This document shows positions 2,954 to 20,099 of a DNA stretch of 64,000 nucleotides, in pieces. How positions within the stretch are numbered: position 1 is the first letter of the stretch; each line of letters begins with the position of its first letter. The DNA is from an uncultured Roseburia sp. Lineage in GTDB: Bacteria; Bacillota; Clostridia; Lachnospirales; Lachnospiraceae. The notes below the pieces were generated by a model. It was not told the DNA's origin. It did not search any database and saw nothing but the letters and a program-made list of their open reading frames with translations. The stretch lies in assembly GCA_945787015.1 (NCBI GenBank), contig CALZGM010000008.1:40053-104052 (forward strand), written 5' to 3'. Position numbers and translations under genes: made by a program.

Positions 2954-3472
2954 TTGAAATTGTTCGAAACAAGTATAGAAGCATCATTTGAGAAAAGTTT
3001 GGAGAAATATGGAAATCAACTTTCGAGGTCTACAAGGGCGTATGAAATTCTTTTGGAACGTGAAATGCGATTTTATGAGCGGATTGAGCCAATTTTTGCA
3101 GAGCTAGTTCCACTTGTGCACGACTTGCTTTATTATATGACAAGAGATGAGAATGTTGAGAGAGAAATCGAATGCGAAGCATTTCGCACAAATTTTGGAA
3201 GGTATACATGCCTGATAAAAGAGTTAAAAAATGAAACACTTATTCATCAATCATATATTCCGCAGTCTGTATTTAGAACGTCTGTTGCAGTCGTAAAGCA
3301 AATGCAAGATGATTTAAACTACTGGTATGATATGGCAAAATTGTTGTTTGAAGGGGGCTATGAAAACATAGATTACGATAATGGTGAAAAGGCGGTTGAT
3401 AGATTACTTTTACGGCTTTCGGCAGCAGAGATAGACATTAAGAAAAGATTGGAAGAATTGAGTGGAATATAG
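2954..3472 (+). CDS. Hypothetical helical protein, possibly 5'-truncated
   Basis: A 172-residue, highly charged and predominantly helical protein with no recognised domain or membrane segment. The only in-frame start is a TTG with a poorly placed ribosome binding site (GGAGAG about 21 bases upstream). The frame stays open back to base 2915, so the gene may have lost its original 5' end when the region was assembled. It ends four bases before the next frame and an AGGAGG follows directly, so it is probably co-transcribed with the XRE gene. No function can be assigned. Confidence 0.55.
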   Translation: MKLFETSIEASFEKSLEKYGNQLSRSTRAYEILLEREMRFYERIEPIFAELVPLVHDLLYYMTRDENVEREIECEAFRTNFGRYTCLIKELKNETLIHQSYIPQSVFRTSVAVVKQMQDDLNYWYDMAKLLFEGGYENIDYDNGEKAVDRLLLRLSAAEIDIKKRLEELSGI

Positions 3473-3628
3473 GAGGTGGCAAGGATGGAATTTTACAAAT
3501 TACCTGCGAATGCGGAAGCATTACTTCATGAAATTTTACAAGCAGATAAAAGGAACTCATATAGCGTCCGTCTTGGAGGAATAAATCGAATATCAATTAA
3601 AAACTATAATATGAAAGGAAGGTGCCAT

Positions 3629-3949
3629 ATGTTTCCATTAATCAACAAACGAGAAACCGGTGTCAACCTACGCAGAATCATGGACATGCGTGGAATTACA
3701 CCGAAAGACGTACAAGAATATCTTGGACTTGGATGCGTGCAGAGTGTGTACCGTTGGACTGATGGTGTCAATATGCCGACCATTGACAATTTGTATGCAC
3801 TAAGCGAATTACTCCAAGTTCCGATTGATGCAATCGTGCGCGGGAATAGGGCAACCATTGCGCCGGATATTGTTATAAAGCAACTGGATTCTCGAGAAAG
3901 CAGACTGTGTGCATATTATGAGAAATTGAATGAGATGCGTGCAGCGTAA
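3629..3949 (+). CDS. XRE-family HTH regulator, paralogue of the 17.8-kb gene
   Basis: The ATG at 3629 follows AAAGGAAGGTGCC and gives a 106-residue protein that aligns over its full length with the XRE protein at 17,809 (both read ETGxNLRRIM, RGITPKD, VQSVY and MPTIDNLYALS). The helix-turn-helix covers roughly residues 8-65. The frame is open further upstream (ATG at 3485 behind AGGAGG), which would add 48 residues absent from the paralogue; I prefer the internal start, but a longer fusion or translational re-initiation is possible. It probably represses its own module: the downstream leader carries a conserved hairpin. Confidence 0.8.
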   Translation: MFPLINKRETGVNLRRIMDMRGITPKDVQEYLGLGCVQSVYRWTDGVNMPTIDNLYALSELLQVPIDAIVRGNRATIAPDIVIKQLDSRESRLCAYYEKLNEMRAA

Positions 3950-3984
3950 AAATTGAACTACAGCTTCAATGACAAACGGAATAT

Positions 3985-4027
3985 CCTCCTTTAGAATAGT
4001 CGGTAGAGACAATATTCTAAGGGGAGG
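3985..4027 (+). promoter_or_regulatory. Hairpin pairing CCTCC with the GGAGG of the leader
   Basis: CCTCCTTTAGAATA (3985-3998) can pair with the arm at 4013-4027 ending in GGGGAGG. The same arrangement follows the paralogous XRE gene at 18.1 kb, which argues that the structure is selected. It would hide a Shine-Dalgarno-like GGAGG. Confidence 0.5.
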
Positions 4028-4080
4028 CTAAATCCTCTCCTCACCAGAAGGTTCGGATTTTGCTTCGCAAAACAAGGAGG
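4023..4080 (+). repeat. 58-nt leader shared with the chromosomal LysR gene
   Basis: This segment, ending in the AAGGAGG ribosome binding site, is repeated in inverse orientation at 60,176-60,233, directly upstream of the LysR start codon. I count 55 of 58 identical positions; the differences cluster in one 4-base block. It contains a small hairpin with TTTTGC/GCAAAA arms and a CCTCTCC that can pair with GGAGG. Confidence 0.85.
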
Positions 4081-4085
4081 ATAAT

Positions 4086-4748
4086 ATGAGCGAGAAGATG
4101 TTAGTAACGCAGGCTCTGGATGAGAGAGACCTGTTGGTAAAGAAGATAGCAGACAAGATTGCCAAGGCAAGCTTTGTTGATACCATTAAGCCGAATGAGG
4201 ATAAGGTTTTTGCAAAGCGGATTGACAAAGAAGGGTATGCAAAAGAAGCAGAGTCAGCGTATCAGCAGATTGTTGATTTAATTGACCGATTCCAGAAGAT
4301 TGACGCTGCAATTGTAGCATCTAATGCAAGTACAGAAATTACTACTTCCTATGGTACTTTCACGGTTGCTGGTGCGATTGCTCTTAGAAGCAGACTTCGT
4401 GGCGCAGGTGCTTACGGAGGTGATGCTGATTTTGAAGGAAGACTTCAGAAAAAGCTGGCTAATGAGTACAGTGAAAGGGTGCAGTTCTGCGACAGAAAGA
4501 ACAGTCAGTTGCAGTCTACGGCAGAAGAGATGCGTCTTAGTATTCTTGGAAAAGACAGTAAGACCAAGGATGAAAAGCCTTTGGGAGTTGTAGAAGCCTA
4601 TGTTAAGGAAAATACAACAGAACTGGTGGATCCGTTGGATGCTAAGAAAAAGCTGGAGGCCTTGGAAGAAAAGCGTAACACACTTTTGACGGAGTTGGAT
4701 ACACAAATAAAGGTGTCTAACGCAACAACATTTATTGAGGTAGCGTAA
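4086..4748 (+). CDS. DIP1984/DUF6847-like protein next to a tRNA-like RNA
   Basis: A 220-residue soluble protein with an N-terminal helical part, a central segment ending in SYGTFTVAGAIALRSRLRG, and a C-terminal helix pair. The layout (helical start, ALDERDLL, central 'Asn/Thr then A-alternating' block, C-terminal LDTQIKVSNATT) resembles the DIP1984 (DUF6847, septicolysin-like) family, although the match is from memory and the protein is longer than usual. Members of that family turn up in RNA-repair operons together with RtcB, Band-7 proteins and a tRNA-like RNA. Here a tRNA-like structure lies 95 bases downstream. It has a strong AAGGAGG site inside a leader shared with the host LysR gene. 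Confidence 0.6.
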   Translation: MSEKMLVTQALDERDLLVKKIADKIAKASFVDTIKPNEDKVFAKRIDKEGYAKEAESAYQQIVDLIDRFQKIDAAIVASNASTEITTSYGTFTVAGAIALRSRLRGAGAYGGDADFEGRLQKKLANEYSERVQFCDRKNSQLQSTAEEMRLSILGKDSKTKDEKPLGVVEAYVKENTTELVDPLDAKKKLEALEEKRNTLLTELDTQIKVSNATTFIEVA

Positions 4749-4786
4749 GGTATTTGCCTGCATTACGAAAACCTCAAATCCGGCTT

Positions 4787-5177
4787 CCCTGTAACAGGGT
4801 TACGTTACAAGAAAATATTACCAATTCTGATTAAATTGGGTTGCTACTTAAAGAATGGCGTAATGGTAACGCTCATGACTAGTGATCATGTTTTGTAGGT
4901 TCGAATCCTACTTCTGGGAAAAGTGGTTTAATTAAGATGAAAGCAAACATCGCCAATTTAACTGTTTTGCGTTTTATTTGAACCGTTAAAGGTGAATCGT
5001 CAACGATTTTATTCTTGAATGGTTTTAGGTGAAGTGAAAACTTTCGTGTAGACATAGAAATGTGTTGAAATCCACGATAAAGGTTAAAGCGGTAAGCCGG
5101 TTGGCTGGAGGTAAGCCTCGTGGCTGTAATGTGGGCATATGTTTTAGATGATGAAGCCGTGGCGAGAGCTGCGGCTT
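4787..5177 (+). other. Structured intergenic region around the tRNA-like RNA
   Basis: No open frame of note occupies 4749-5262. The stretch holds a CCCTG/CAGGG hairpin (4787-4799), a CCAATT/AATTGG hairpin (4821-4839), the tRNA-like fold (4844-4925), a GAGG/CCTC hairpin (5108-5119) and an AAGCCG/CGGCTT hairpin (5154-5177). The density of helices suggests one longer non-coding RNA or a structured 5' leader of the NYN gene. Confidence 0.5.
4844..4925 (+). ncRNA. tRNA-like non-coding RNA (not a canonical tRNA)
   Basis: All tRNA arms can be drawn. The D arm is GCG/CGC around TAATGGTAA (4858-4872), the anticodon arm CATGA/TCATG has the 7-base loop CTAGTGA, and the T arm is GTAGG/CCTAC around TTCGAAT (4895-4911). 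The acceptor stem is abnormal: only AGAA pairs with TTCT, next to an internal loop, and the helix then continues outside the tRNA limits as CTACTT/AAGTGG (4844-4849 with 4920-4925). The formal anticodon AGT is not used by bacterial tRNAs. A tRNA-like module on an extended stem recalls YrlA-type Y RNAs and the tRNA-like RNA described with Band-7 repair modules. It lies between the DIP1984-like and NYN genes. Confidence 0.65.
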
Positions 5178-5189
5178 TGTTTGTAGGGG

Positions 5190-5239
5190 TGAGGTTACAA
5201 TTTGTGACTTCAAGTTTGATGTTTCAATTTGGAACCTCA
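5190..5239 (+). promoter_or_regulatory. Two tandem TGAGGT-type palindromes before the NYN gene
   Basis: Two 23-bp elements (5190-5212 and 5217-5239), each with 10-bp half-sites of the type TGAGGTTNCA around a 3-bp centre ATT, sit 27 bp apart and end just before the ribosome binding site. Copies of the same element occur at 19,591 and 20,077. They could be operators of a dimeric repressor (XRE candidates are nearby) or RNA hairpins next to the Shine-Dalgarno. Confidence 0.65.
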
Positions 5240-5262
5240 AATTTAAAAGGAGCGTGACCGTC

Positions 5263-5925
5263 ATGGCAGCAATATTAGTAGACTACGAAAATGTATCCAC
5301 GACCGATGGACTAAAAGGTGTGGAATATCTGAACGTAAACGATACCCTCATCATTTTTTACAGTCAGTGCTGTGAAAAAATTCGCGCGGAATACATAGAT
5401 ATGATAGAGAAGAGCCAATGCAAGATTAAGACATATAAGCTAGCGAAAACAGGGAAGAACGCATTAGATTTTTATATCGCAGTGGAGTGTGGGATTTTGG
5501 GTGTACAGGGAGAAAAGCAAATAAGTATTATCAGCAAAGACAAAGGCTTTTGCGCAGTGTCAGATTTCTTTCGTATTCAGGAAAAATTAGATGGCGTGAT
5601 AGTCCGTGTGGCATCCAATGTTGAGAATGCATTAGTCGTATTAAATGCACCAGAGGACGAGGCAAGAAAGCGGCTAATAAAAGAAAAGACAAGAACACTT
5701 AGCATCGATGCAGAGCAGGCGAGAATAACGGAGCATAGAGCTTTTGTGGAGAAAATCACAAAGGCATTTGAAGGAACGGAGTATGAGAAACAGACAGATA
5801 AAATCATACGATTTATAGAAGGAAGAGATGCAAAAACACCGAGACTCTTATATACAGGTTCGATGCATGAATTTGGGAGAGAAGACGGTAGAGCGATTTA
5901 CCAGGTGTTGAAGCAAGTAGTTTAA
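5263..5925 (+). CDS. NYN/PIN-like domain nuclease
   Basis: A 220-residue protein with the hallmarks of NYN (PIN-like, LabA-related) metal-dependent RNases: AILVDYENV at the N-terminus with the first acidic residue and Asn, ALDFYIAVECG with the second Asp, and IISKDKGF with a further Asp, over residues ~1-120. The C-terminal ~90 residues are helical and unassigned. I prefer the ATG at 5263 because AAGGAG lies 10 bases upstream; the GTG at 5254 is too close to it. The gene directly follows a tRNA-like RNA and two palindromic operator-like sites, so a role in cutting or sensing RNA in a regulated module is likely but inferred. Confidence 0.8.
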   Translation: MAAILVDYENVSTTDGLKGVEYLNVNDTLIIFYSQCCEKIRAEYIDMIEKSQCKIKTYKLAKTGKNALDFYIAVECGILGVQGEKQISIISKDKGFCAVSDFFRIQEKLDGVIVRVASNVENALVVLNAPEDEARKRLIKEKTRTLSIDAEQARITEHRAFVEKITKAFEGTEYEKQTDKIIRFIEGRDAKTPRLLYTGSMHEFGREDGRAIYQVLKQVV

Positions 5926-6181: not shown

Positions 6182-6207
6182 AAAGAAAAAGGTACGAGGT
6201 GATTGCT

Positions 6208-7317
6208 ATGTTAAAGAAATTCAGTGTAGAAAACTTCAAAGGCTTTCAGGATAAAATCACATTTGATATAGGTTCGCCAAACAATTATAACTTCAATTCA
6301 GAGATTATAGAAAACGGTTGTGTGACGAAGGGAATTATCTATGGAATTAACAGTAGCGGAAAATCCAATCTAGGATTGGCAGTTTTTGATATCATTACCC
6401 ATTTAACCGAAAAACAGAAGCTACTTCCAAGCTATGATTTTTATCTGAATATGAGTGGAAGAAAATCGTTTGCTGAGTTTGAATATACTTTCGTGTTTGA
6501 TGACCATGAAGTGGTTTATCGGTATTGCAAAAACGATGTAAATACATTAAAGAGTGAGAGTTTGTCCATTGATGGAAAAGAGGTTATCTTTTTCGATTTC
6601 TTTACCAGGGATGGTTTTACATTGTTGGAGGGCTCTGATACTTTGAATGCTTCCATCAAGAGTGATAGCCCGATTTCCCGTGTAAAGTATGTGAATAACA
6701 ATTCGATTCTTACGGATAACATACAGAATCAGGTGTTTAAGAAGTTTATTGATTTTGTGGATCGTATGCTTTTGTTCTATTCCCTGGATAGCCGAGGATA
6801 TGAAGGCTTTATGAATGGAAGCGAAGGTGTTGCGGAAGGCATTGTGAATACCGGAAAGGTACAGGATTTTCAGAAGTTTCTGAAAGAGAATGATATTGAC
6901 TACCAACTGTATGGATGCGAGGTTGATGGACGAAAGGCGATTTATTGTCACTTTGATAATAAAGATGCTGATTTCTTTAAGATTGCTTCCGCCGGAACCA
7001 GATCCTTAGCCCTGTTTTATTACTGGTATATCCGTATGGAGAGGGCATCCTTTGTATTCATAGATGAATTTGATGCATTTTATCATTTTGAATTATCGGA
7101 GTCGGTGCAGAGGCACCTGAAACAGATATCCGGTGTTCAGATATTTACAACAACTCATAATACAGATTTGATGAGTAATGATCTTCTCAGACCGGACAGC
7201 TACTTTTTGCTTGAAAATAATAAAATCCAAGCTATTTCCGACTTGACAGAGAAGGAACTGCGACAGGCACACAATCTTCAGAAAATGTATAAGGCAGGTG
7301 CATTTAATGGCAGATAA
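6208..7317 (+). CDS. AAA_15/AAA_21 family ATPase (OLD-like), abortive-infection type
   Basis: A 369-residue ABC-type ATPase with N-terminal strand FSVENFKGF, Walker A GINSSGKSN (residues ~46-54), the signature region SAGTRSLALFYY, Walker B FVFIDEFDAF and a final TTTHNTDL motif; this is the compact architecture of OLD/RloA/AbiL-type ATPases. The ATG at 6208 is 6 bases behind GAGGTGA. Its end overlaps the start of a TOPRIM-type gene, the typical partner, but that partner is broken, so the pair is probably not functional as a system. It has its own promoter, independent of the NYN operon. Confidence 0.85.
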   Translation: MLKKFSVENFKGFQDKITFDIGSPNNYNFNSEIIENGCVTKGIIYGINSSGKSNLGLAVFDIITHLTEKQKLLPSYDFYLNMSGRKSFAEFEYTFVFDDHEVVYRYCKNDVNTLKSESLSIDGKEVIFFDFFTRDGFTLLEGSDTLNASIKSDSPISRVKYVNNNSILTDNIQNQVFKKFIDFVDRMLLFYSLDSRGYEGFMNGSEGVAEGIVNTGKVQDFQKFLKENDIDYQLYGCEVDGRKAIYCHFDNKDADFFKIASAGTRSLALFYYWYIRMERASFVFIDEFDAFYHFELSESVQRHLKQISGVQIFTTTHNTDLMSNDLLRPDSYFLLENNKIQAISDLTEKELRQAHNLQKMYKAGAFNGR

Positions 7318-7947
7318 AGACTATAAGGTGTTTATAGTCGAAGGAGAGACCAGGGAACCACAAATCATTGATAATAATTGAAAGAGGATGATTTTAATAC
7401 CGATGTCATTGAGGTTCTTAGGGAGAGCAATGACGAGATCAAGAAACAACTCACAGGATTATCAAGAGATGACTTTTCAGAGGTGTACCTTTTCTTTGAT
7501 TATGACGCGCATCAAACAAATTTAGGAAAAACAGTCAATGAAGATGTGATTCATCAAATGCTTGAAAGCTTTGACAATGAAACAGAGAATGGAAAATTAT
7601 ACATTAGCTATCCGATGGTTGAGGCACTCAGAGACTATGAACCGGGAAAATGTGGTAATGGAGTGGATTGCTTTGTAGAGATAGAAGACCTTGGCAATTA
7701 TAAGAATGCTTCTGCAGCAAGAGCGCACAATCCCCATTTTAAGGAATATGAGCAGTATTCCAGTAATGTAACGCCGGGAAATATATATGCTGCGGAATTA
7801 AAAGAAGCGGAGAGACATCGAGTATTTGTATTGAGTGCATTCCCGGAGTTTTTACTGGACTACTTTGGATTGAAGCTATGGAAAACAAGCGTGAGGCATA
7901 CGCGAAATCAAAGAAACAAATTAGAATGTAAAAAAGCGTTAAATTAA
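7307..7947 (+). pseudogene. TOPRIM/RloB-like partner nuclease, disrupted
   Basis: The gene opens at ATG 7307 inside the ATPase gene and encodes MADKDYKVFIVEGETREP, the typical TOPRIM start with its conserved Glu. It stops after 24 codons (TGA at 7379). The continuation lies in another frame from about 7378 (KEDDFNTDVIEVLRE, then the acidic YLFFDYDAHQ motif and SYPMVEAL). Compared with the family roughly 30 residues between the two parts are missing, so a deletion with frameshift inactivated it. The extreme C-terminus also looks abnormal. Together with the upstream ATPase it formed an RloAB/AbiL/PARIS-type ATPase-TOPRIM module. Confidence 0.7.
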
Positions 7948-8017: not shown

Positions 8018-8791
8018 ATGCGAGTACTTGTGATCCCTGATATTCATCTAAAACCGTGGATATTTGACAGGGCAGAGAAAATCTTAAAAGACGGTAAGGC
8101 GGATCGGGCTATATGTCTGATGGATATTCCGGATGACTGGAATATGGAATTTCAGATAGAACGATATAAAGAAACATTTGACAGGGCAATCGCATTTGCC
8201 ATGGACTATCCGGATACTCTTTGGTGCTATGGCAATCATGATGTCAGTTACCCGTGGGGAAGGCTTGAGACCGGATATTCTCCTTATGCCGAGAGGACAG
8301 TTATGTCAAAGCTTGAAGAACTTGAGAACAACCTTAAGAGTCAGGCACAGATCAACATAATGCATCGGATTGACAATGTGCTTTTCTCCCATGGCGGTCT
8401 TACTACAGATTTTTTGAAATGGTTTAGCGAAGATTTGCTGGATGCAGATATAGATGATGTTGTTGAAGCGGTGAACAATGCTTCCCACGACTATCTCTGG
8501 AATGACGCATCTCCGTTATGGAACAGACCACAGTATGAGACCAAAGAGATATTCAGACCAGATATCTACAAACAGGTGGTAGGGCACACGCCGGTGGAGA
8601 AGATATTTGAAAAAGACAGCATCATATCGACAGATGTGTTCTCTACCTATAGAGACGGAAGGCAGATTGGAGAGTCTGCGATGATTGTTATTGATTCGGA
8701 AACCGGGAAATATAAGAAGGTAGAGGTTATGGGGAAGCTGGGGTGTGATAGCGATGAACGAACCTACACAGCAATATTCAGATTTAATTAA
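8018..8791 (+). CDS. Calcineurin-like metallophosphoesterase
   Basis: A 257-residue protein with all phosphoesterase motifs: DIH (D8, H10), MDIPDDW in place of GDxxD (~36-42), GNHD (72-75), SHGG (124-127) and GHTP (189-192). The Gly of the second motif is Met here. The family covers PPP-type phosphatases and nucleotidases; the substrate is unknown. The ATG follows GGGAGATGGAG. It overlaps the start of the TOTE primase-helicase gene by 38 bases in another frame, so the two are translationally coupled, which makes a role in the same conflict system plausible. Confidence 0.85.
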   Translation: MRVLVIPDIHLKPWIFDRAEKILKDGKADRAICLMDIPDDWNMEFQIERYKETFDRAIAFAMDYPDTLWCYGNHDVSYPWGRLETGYSPYAERTVMSKLEELENNLKSQAQINIMHRIDNVLFSHGGLTTDFLKWFSEDLLDADIDDVVEAVNNASHDYLWNDASPLWNRPQYETKEIFRPDIYKQVVGHTPVEKIFEKDSIISTDVFSTYRDGRQIGESAMIVIDSETGKYKKVEVMGKLGCDSDERTYTAIFRFN

Positions 8792-19590: not shown

Positions 19591-19613
19591 TGAGGTCACA
19601 GATTGTGACCTCA
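19591..19613. promoter_or_regulatory. Perfect TGAGGT-type palindrome
   Basis: TGAGGTCACA and its exact complement around GAT, two bases after the Fic-like stop codon and upstream of the gene at 19,639. It is the best copy of the element also seen at 5190, 5217 and 20,077. Confidence 0.7.
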
Positions 19614-20076: not shown

Positions 20077-20099
20077 TGAGGTTCCAATTTGGCATCTCA
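20077..20099. promoter_or_regulatory. TGAGGT-type palindrome, fourth copy
   Basis: TGAGGTTCCA, centre ATT, then TGGCATCTCA: 8 of 10 positions symmetric. It ends five bases before the GGAAGGAGG ribosome binding site of the zinc-finger gene. Confidence 0.65.

Follow-up and report, generated by a model that had tools for sequence, protein, structure and literature searches.

Burroughs and Aravind reportedly described, in 2016, SPFH/Band-7 RNA-repair systems that include a tRNA-like RNA. Another reference point is Ro60/Rsr with its YrlA RNA, which in some bacteria are encoded in one operon with RtcB, according to PMC7790460; GOLLD and ROOL, for their part, appear in PMC12286853 as large ornate RNAs of bacteria and phages. 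Here, we analyzed a stretch of 64,000 nt (hereafter the window) from contig C8 of the 3.3-Mb genome of an uncultured Roseburia sp., where the gene of a 220-aa DIP1984-like protein matching PHROG_1491 (4086..4748, + strand) is followed by a large structured RNA of about 383 nt (4755..5137, + strand). Sequence comparison gives good support to the association of gene and RNA, in bacteria and phages alike, as well as to the architecture of the RNA. We propose that the locus would encode a ribonucleoprotein (RNP), with the DIP1984-like product as its core protein and a dedicated RNA of about 380 nt encoded just downstream in the same direction.

Relatives of the protein gene were gathered as 47 loci from genome contigs (42 long matches and 5 fragments), and others came from 10 of 200 genomes of the family; the named relatives are nearly all Lachnospiraceae or bins of Clostridia/Bacillota. 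The RNA was sought with a covariance model, R1, built on 35 of the 36 matches of a pairing scan in phages, viral contigs and a plasmid (L104 was left out). Because its members were picked by perfect pairing, covariation within the R1 set arises partly by selection, and the independent tests of the RNA are the shuffles of the pairing scan and the bacterial R1 matches. In the window, the sole strong R1 match is a conserved 3' hairpin, AAAUCCNNG ... CNNGGCUG, at 5068..5126 on the + strand (42.2 bits, E=3.5e-13), the next best match reaching 10.8 bits (E=0.18). The model matches 40/42 bacterial loci (L013-L054) at 32-48 bits, and the two it misses, L019 and L049, break off at a contig edge no more than 280 nt past the stop codon. 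At L036 the match lies upstream of the protein gene, and among the loci holding a gene fragment only (L009, L010, L055-L059) R1 matched none of seven. Across the 200 family genomes, the RNA occurs in all 8 whose protein match is long (full length in 7, truncated by a contig edge in 1) and, at 28 bits or more, in 1 of the 192 others (Fisher 1.6e-13, with a cut chosen after the list was seen). In this one genome, G135, the RNA match scores 29.6 bits and adjoins a 39-residue match to the protein's end. At E<=0.001, R1 reports 13 genomes, namely these nine and four at 22-23 bits without a protein match, which we took as chance. In the source genome, two good R1 matches adjoin two copies of the gene, and a third at 15.1 bits was also taken as chance. 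The second copy of the pair lies about 21 kb upstream, outside the window, at C8:22288-22841 (L011/L012/L139); its protein gene is frame-broken and its RNA match scores 41.6 bits. The co-occurrence of the RNA with the DIP1984-like gene, for which the first-pass annotation had proposed a covariance-model search, is therefore found. That annotation had imagined a unit of protein, tRNA-like RNA and NYN nuclease; what is conserved is the protein with an RNA of about 383 nt.

The 505-nt gap behind the protein gene folds better than all of 100 shuffles (z=-4.5), and the structure of the RNA was derived with RNAalifold and counts of paired cells from 45 distinct bacterial loci, which remained from 52 downstream stretches after 7 had been dropped before alignment (2 short, 5 duplicates). 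The RNA is bounded by a closing helix of 13 pairs, P1 (5' strand 4755..4767, 3' strand 5125..5137, + strand). Two further helices, P2 (4771-4775 with 5108-5112, + strand) and P3 (4780-4786 with 5094-5100, + strand), cross the 3' hairpin and therefore form a second pseudoknot with it; a first RNAalifold pass did not include the hairpin, the very element that they cross. Counted on the same alignment that proposed the helices, 570/585 cells are paired in P1, 213/225 in P2 and 308/315 in P3, with changes on both sides in 9/13, 5/5 and 7/7 pairs, respectively, although these cells are not independent events because the bacterial copies are related. Between P3 and the variable part lies an H-type pseudoknot (4787..4808, + strand), in which CCC 4787-4789 faces GGG 4797-4799 and GTAAC 4791-4795 faces GTTAC 4804-4808. 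Its second stem has a five-pair core, with 222/225 cells paired in a register that is the best of eight, and this core exists in the compensatory types GUAAC/GUUAC, GCAGC/GCUGC, GUGGC/GCCAC and GGAGC/GCUCC; its first stem of three pairs is without change on both sides. Nearly every complete locus has one and the same layout after the stop codon, with a constant 5' block, a variable arm and a constant 3' block. The idea of a structured gap holding a tRNA-like RNA was thus right as to the RNA, whose compensatory changes were found, and too narrow in its limits, since 4780-5180 omits the 5' strand of P1.

The pair extends well beyond Lachnospiraceae. A tblastn search with the copy of a Pseudomonas phage returned 694 phage records, including T5-like, Vibrio, Klebsiella and Erwinia phages and phage G. 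The distant set comprises 62 loci, of which 41 differ from one another in the 250 nt that follow the gene. It draws on phage records and viral contigs, together with two plasmids (L070, L071) and a further bacterial genome (L061), and it contains the near-identical pairs L096/L104 and L131/L132. An RNA match was found in 41/41 distant copies. The pairing scan, which looked for a hairpin of the type AAA-CCNNG ... CNNGG-CUG with all five pairs, recovered 36/41 (shuffled 25/820), with stems as varied as CCUUG/CAAGG, CCAUG/CAUGG, CCUGG/CCAGG, CCACG/CGUGG, CCCAG/CUGGG, CCAAG/CUUGG and CCUAG/CUAGG, among others. The remaining five were matched by R1, namely L116, L131 and L132 and, weakly, L061 and L071 (17-19 bits); in L116 the match lies about 1.2 kb downstream of the protein gene. 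In 31/36 distant copies, the start of the RNA and the sequence following the hairpin form a P1-like helix above the shuffled 95% level, usually in the setting P1-CG-AAAAC ... GGC-UG-P1, and P2-like pairing into the hairpin interior is above controls for the group (median 12.0 versus 8.8-9.0). 

The PHROG_1491 profile, which carries the database label tail fiber protein, matches the protein over its full length (E=2.1e-35, residues 1-219 in the window; 14/14 tested members). The window protein has no Pfam (PF20935 included), NCBIfam or PADLOC match at E<0.01, and PF20935, the model of DUF6847/DIP1984, finds nothing in the source genome and, for 45 members scanned at E<=1, does not figure in the 25 commonest families. 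Against ten DUF6847 proteins, some of them near-identical, its profile scores 26.2 over 161 collinear columns (hhalign probability 37%), whereas 60 column-shuffled decoys stay at or below 10.6 and the reversed profile reaches 7.6; with the DUF6847 sequences trimmed, two earlier comparisons came out weaker (17% and 2.4%). A remote relationship to DIP1984/DUF6847, at the level of the superfamily, thus appears likely from these profiles, and the name DIP1984-like given at first sight is a fair one at that level, even though no family model matches. A search of the PDB for a solved relative gave nothing significant (best E 0.045), and viral scans with the window and L066 proteins as queries found no relatives.

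Within the variable region, the window carries a tRNA-like arm (4843..4927, + strand; ARAGORN 4847-4919) on a basal helix, 4843-4849 with 4921-4927, and the Rfam tRNA model matches it at 50.6 bits over 4852-4915. In the predicted fold its acceptor stem is interrupted and extended by an outer helix, as had been noticed at first reading. ARAGORN finds a tRNA-like fold at this place in 35/45 distinct bacterial copies, with 13 anticodon assignments (in copies, Thr 20, Leu 5, Ile 4, Ser 2 and Tyr, His, Arg and Pro 1 each) and a CCA at or after the arm end in 11/35. The arm lacks, in the window's predicted fold, the free seven-pair acceptor stem and, across copies, the stable anticodon identity of an ordinary tRNA, and the drift of the anticodon together with the extended stem speaks against a decoding tRNA. 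In the Erwinia phage Desertfox (L090), the insert matches YrlA instead, at 44.5 bits, below the gathering score of 69. Judging from these comparisons, the tRNA-like fold is an exchangeable insert, tRNA-like or YrlA-like, in a larger RNA.

Between the arm and the 3' hairpin runs an array of 7-nt repeats of about NU(N)AANN (4958..5042, + strand), visible as an AA periodicity. Measured over the 130 nt 5' of the hairpin against 100 sets of dinucleotide-preserving shuffles, AA steps at 7, 14 and 21 nt have z=16.0, 13.4 and 14.2 in 43 bacterial copies and z=24.5, 16.2 and 12.1 in 36 distant ones. The unit is about GUNAANN in bacteria and UYAAAGN in the distant copies, and the longest chain has a median of 6 units (4-11) in the former and 8 (range 2-20) in the latter. 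Seven nucleotides are not the period of coding sequence, and a row of equal protein sites would be the simplest cause of the array.

The genes adjoining the pair differ from locus to locus. The neighbour scan covered 97 of 139 listed proteins, from 36 loci, and the families seen are the 25 commonest. An Rnl-type RNA ligase lies near the pair at five bacterial loci (L039, L042, L048, L051, L053) and, 34% identical, behind the RNA in the Pseudomonas phage Boevelstad (L066); RtcB is near it at L021, L052 and L027 (partial), and also in Dulem virus 39 (L068). A relative of the NYN nuclease occurs at five loci (window, L044, L047, L031, L033) and follows the pair in the first three. Altogether, 13 of 43 loci (42 bacterial and the window) have a ligase, RtcB or an NYN relative. 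Among 100 genomes of the family, Rnl-type ligase was found in 5, as judged by open-frame length, and RtcB in 33; given this background, a random draw would be expected to yield far fewer than the five ligases and three RtcB counted in 0.45 Mb of bacterial loci, with the caveat that mobile-gene islands are not random DNA and that several of the enzyme-bearing loci are close kin. At L147, a metallophosphoesterase 43% identical to that of the window stands right behind the RNA.

Taken together, these comparisons are about evenly balanced for a Ro/Y-like RNP in which the protein would coat the repeats and the tRNA-like arm would engage tRNA-processing or repair enzymes. The protein may bind the evenly spaced repeats as successive subunits, while the arm, by mimicking a tRNA, would hold or occupy tRNA-processing, tRNA-cleaving or RNA-repair enzymes, the partner varying by locus between RNA ligase, RtcB and NYN RNase. 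Phages might use such a particle to guard or mend tRNAs during infection, and Lachnospiraceae would keep regulated copies, here among defence genes. A bolder version, which we put forward tentatively as less likely than not, is a new class of RNP with one subunit per 7-nt repeat, forming a ring or filament on a pseudoknotted RNA whose swappable tRNA-mimic arm recruits or blocks tRNA enzymes, carried by phages that range from the T5-like to phage G and taken up into bacterial defence islands. Several observations weigh against the Ro/Y-like interpretation. ARAGORN does not find the arm in 10/45 bacterial copies, and a YrlA or tRNA match falls inside the RNA in only 4/36 distant copies scanned (L090, L061, L072, L092), so that the arm, unrecognised in many copies, would be optional. 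The remaining bacterial loci have none of ligase, RtcB and NYN in the stretch examined. The repeats could serve folding instead of protein binding, and their computed unpairedness is barely raised (0.43 versus 0.39, higher in 28/36). Finally, the crossing helix of P2 type is weak when the distant copies are taken one by one, 11/31 being above the shuffled 95% level.

A first alternative retains the arm as the active part and gives up repair: the arm would lure anticodon nucleases or tRNA-modifying enzymes, and the protein would do no more than stabilise the RNA. The anticodons indeed vary among near relatives, and tRNA genes surround the viral copies, at least one tRNA match being present in each of the 20 viral loci scanned. 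Moreover, according to PMC7790460 the tRNA-like domain of YrlA may act as a competitive inhibitor. We nevertheless regard such a decoy as unlikely, since the arm goes unrecognised in many copies, including the T5-like L086, where Rfam finds neither a YrlA nor a tRNA match inside the RNA, and since the conserved core is elsewhere.

The control elements of the locus bear on a second alternative, that of a cis-acting RNA, a 3' UTR (untranslated region) or leader element through which the protein gene or its downstream neighbour would be controlled. Ahead of the protein gene, an operator/promoter-like element can be read from the sequence (3956..3997, + strand), with AACT-ACA-GCTT followed by ATGACA, 17 nt and TAGAAT. 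By pattern match, a similar element precedes the gene in 21/31 upstream regions of relatives, a count in which the window is scored as a miss because its copy falls outside the 110 nt tested. A long inverted repeat, TCCTCCTTTAGAAT ... ATTCTAAGGGAGGA, lies at 3984-4027 in the window and is also present upstream in relatives. The promoter-like -10 sits within its 5' arm, and in relatives its 3' arm overlies the protein gene's ribosome site, with 18/31 upstream regions above the shuffled 95% level; the repeat of the window lies about 60 nt away from the present ribosome site. Such an arrangement would silence read-through messages and leave the gene's own transcripts free. Immediately 3' of the RNA stands an intrinsic-terminator-like hairpin with a T run (5153..5184, + strand), and hairpins of this kind follow 15/44 bacterial and 6/35 distant copies (shuffled 10/440 and 8/350). 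The covered ribosome site, indicative of tight control, the terminator-like hairpins of some copies and the place of the RNA after the stop codon in nearly all copies would suit a cis-acting element. Yet the genes downstream vary between loci, the matches of L036 and L116 lie, as described above, upstream of the gene or far behind it, and the RNA is large; we consider this explanation rather improbable.

A third possibility centres on the nuclease gene, PIN7/NYN (5263..5925, + strand; PIN7 E=2.7e-17, likely ATG 5263), as the toxin of a toxin-antitoxin module, with the repeat RNA as antitoxin and the protein as chaperone. That the nuclease gene follows the pair in the window, L044 and L047, and that a BrnT toxin is found in 2/97 neighbours, would agree with it. 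However, no NYN relative was found at most bacterial loci, the pair occurs, as judged by the protein, in hundreds of phage records, and none of the 9 window proteins has a ToxN-like match at E<0.01, as a type III system would call for. A toxin-antitoxin module is thus very unlikely, and the NYN gene, once taken as a fixed partner, is better seen as accessory. The wider notion of an RNA-based defence or repair unit fared better, in that ligase or RtcB lies near some copies and defence-like genes flank the module in the window.

Those flanking genes are IetA/IetS-like on one side (26-2853) and a PDC-M12A/B-like pair on the other (6199-7947); a metallophosphoesterase is encoded nearby (8018-8791), as is a helicase that weakly matches a primase-polymerase. 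The 172-aa gene that separates the IetS-like gene from XRE (2954-3472) has no match above the curated cut-off in Pfam, NCBIfam or PADLOC. The XRE-family regulator gene (3629..3949, + strand; HTH_3 E=1.4e-6) likely starts at ATG 3629 rather than 3476, because its homologues mostly align from about residue 52. All the pieces first listed here, the XRE, DIP1984-like and PIN/NYN genes, the tRNA-like fold and two palindromes, are present according to family scans, ARAGORN, Rfam and the sequence itself, but XRE is not a regular opener of the module, being within 700 nt upstream in 16/42 bacterial loci and downstream in 7. The two palindromes, GAGGTNNCAATTTGNNACCTC-like, precede the NYN gene (5191-5211 and 5218-5238, + strand). 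With at most 2 mismatches the motif has 4 matches in the window, where 0.04 are expected; the others are at 19592-19612 and 20078-20098, and the palindrome is also found behind the RNA in L014, L015 and L025. It is likely an operator for some regulator.

The label of PHROG_1491 and the many large-phage records raise the question of a structural or packaging RNP of phages, and the annotation of Vibrio phage Chester places a spanin and a tail protein 1-2 kb downstream; the other annotated stretches have no tail or head gene nearby, with mostly hypothetical proteins, tRNAs and some enzymes, and bacterial genomes keep copies with varied neighbours among the 25 commonest families, which makes this role most improbable. 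Lastly, an ordinary tRNA gene lying in the spacer by chance is scarcely credible despite the ARAGORN and Rfam calls and the CCA of some arms, as the anticodon changes among close relatives (agt included), the acceptor stem is extended and the whole is embedded in a larger covarying RNA. Other RNAs were met near the phage copies. In Brevibacillus phage Jenst (L064), a skipping-rope RNA (RF02924, 67.6 bits, 3625-3702) lies between the protein gene and the RNA; first taken as part of the latter, it ends about where P1 begins and was set apart. A viral contig (L100) has a tmRNA match of 114.9 bits at 951-1360, near the pair.

A widespread noncoding RNA with a dedicated protein thus seems to have gone unrecognised, as an undescribed RNA–protein machine. 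The protein has been filed as a tail fibre protein and, of the RNA, the 5' end alone has been catalogued; no description of the pair was found among the literature matches listed, a coverage that leaves out most subscription papers, including Burroughs and Aravind 2016, which might narrow this claim. The pair brings together tRNA mimicry, RNA repair and phage-host conflict, and its 7-nt array suggests that protein is arranged on RNA in an unfamiliar manner. Since it is present in a T5-like phage of E. coli K-12, namely Tequintavirus IrisVonRoten, with gene bas32_0072 and about 440 nt behind it, the pair is testable at once.

Compared with known systems, the DUF6847/DIP1984 family (PF20935) shares a remote homology of the protein, which is longer here (about 205-220 aa versus about 150-175 aa), and an R1 match was found in 0/8 DUF6847 loci searched. 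GOLLD and ROOL are both in Rfam; no such match was among the Rfam hits for the window and the distant loci, and here a dedicated protein gene is attached. RAGATH-27 (RF03100) reaches its gathering score on the 5' part of the RNA (a P1 strand and the pseudoknot) in six phage relatives (1/15 sources, 5/20 and 0/6 by scan), but it spans 86 nt only, without the arm, the repeats, the 3' hairpin or the protein, and has no match in the window. Rfam therefore holds only the 5' part of the RNA, for some phages. With the Band-7 repair systems, the locus would share a tRNA-like RNA, RNA-repair enzymes and, according to the first-pass annotation, a DIP1984 protein; no Band-7 protein is among the 9 window proteins or the 25 commonest families of 97 neighbours, and no RNA ligase among the 9 window proteins, whereas ligase or RtcB lies near 8 other bacterial loci. 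As for Ro and Y RNA, no Pfam match to Ro/TROVE was seen in the 9 window proteins, nor in the 25 commonest families shown for members and 97 neighbours, and no Y RNA match to the core or the window; the arm is usually a plain tRNA-like fold, the phage copy L090 with its sub-threshold YrlA-like arm being the one case of that kind here. To our knowledge, pseudoknots and a 7-nt array are not known in Y RNAs. Both systems nevertheless consist of a dedicated protein and a noncoding RNA with a tRNA-like module, as described for the Ro side in PMC7790460. We infer that the RNP may act as Ro does with its Y RNA, while not belonging to that family; its protein would bind the RNA and coat the repeats, and the particle may be linked to tRNA damage.

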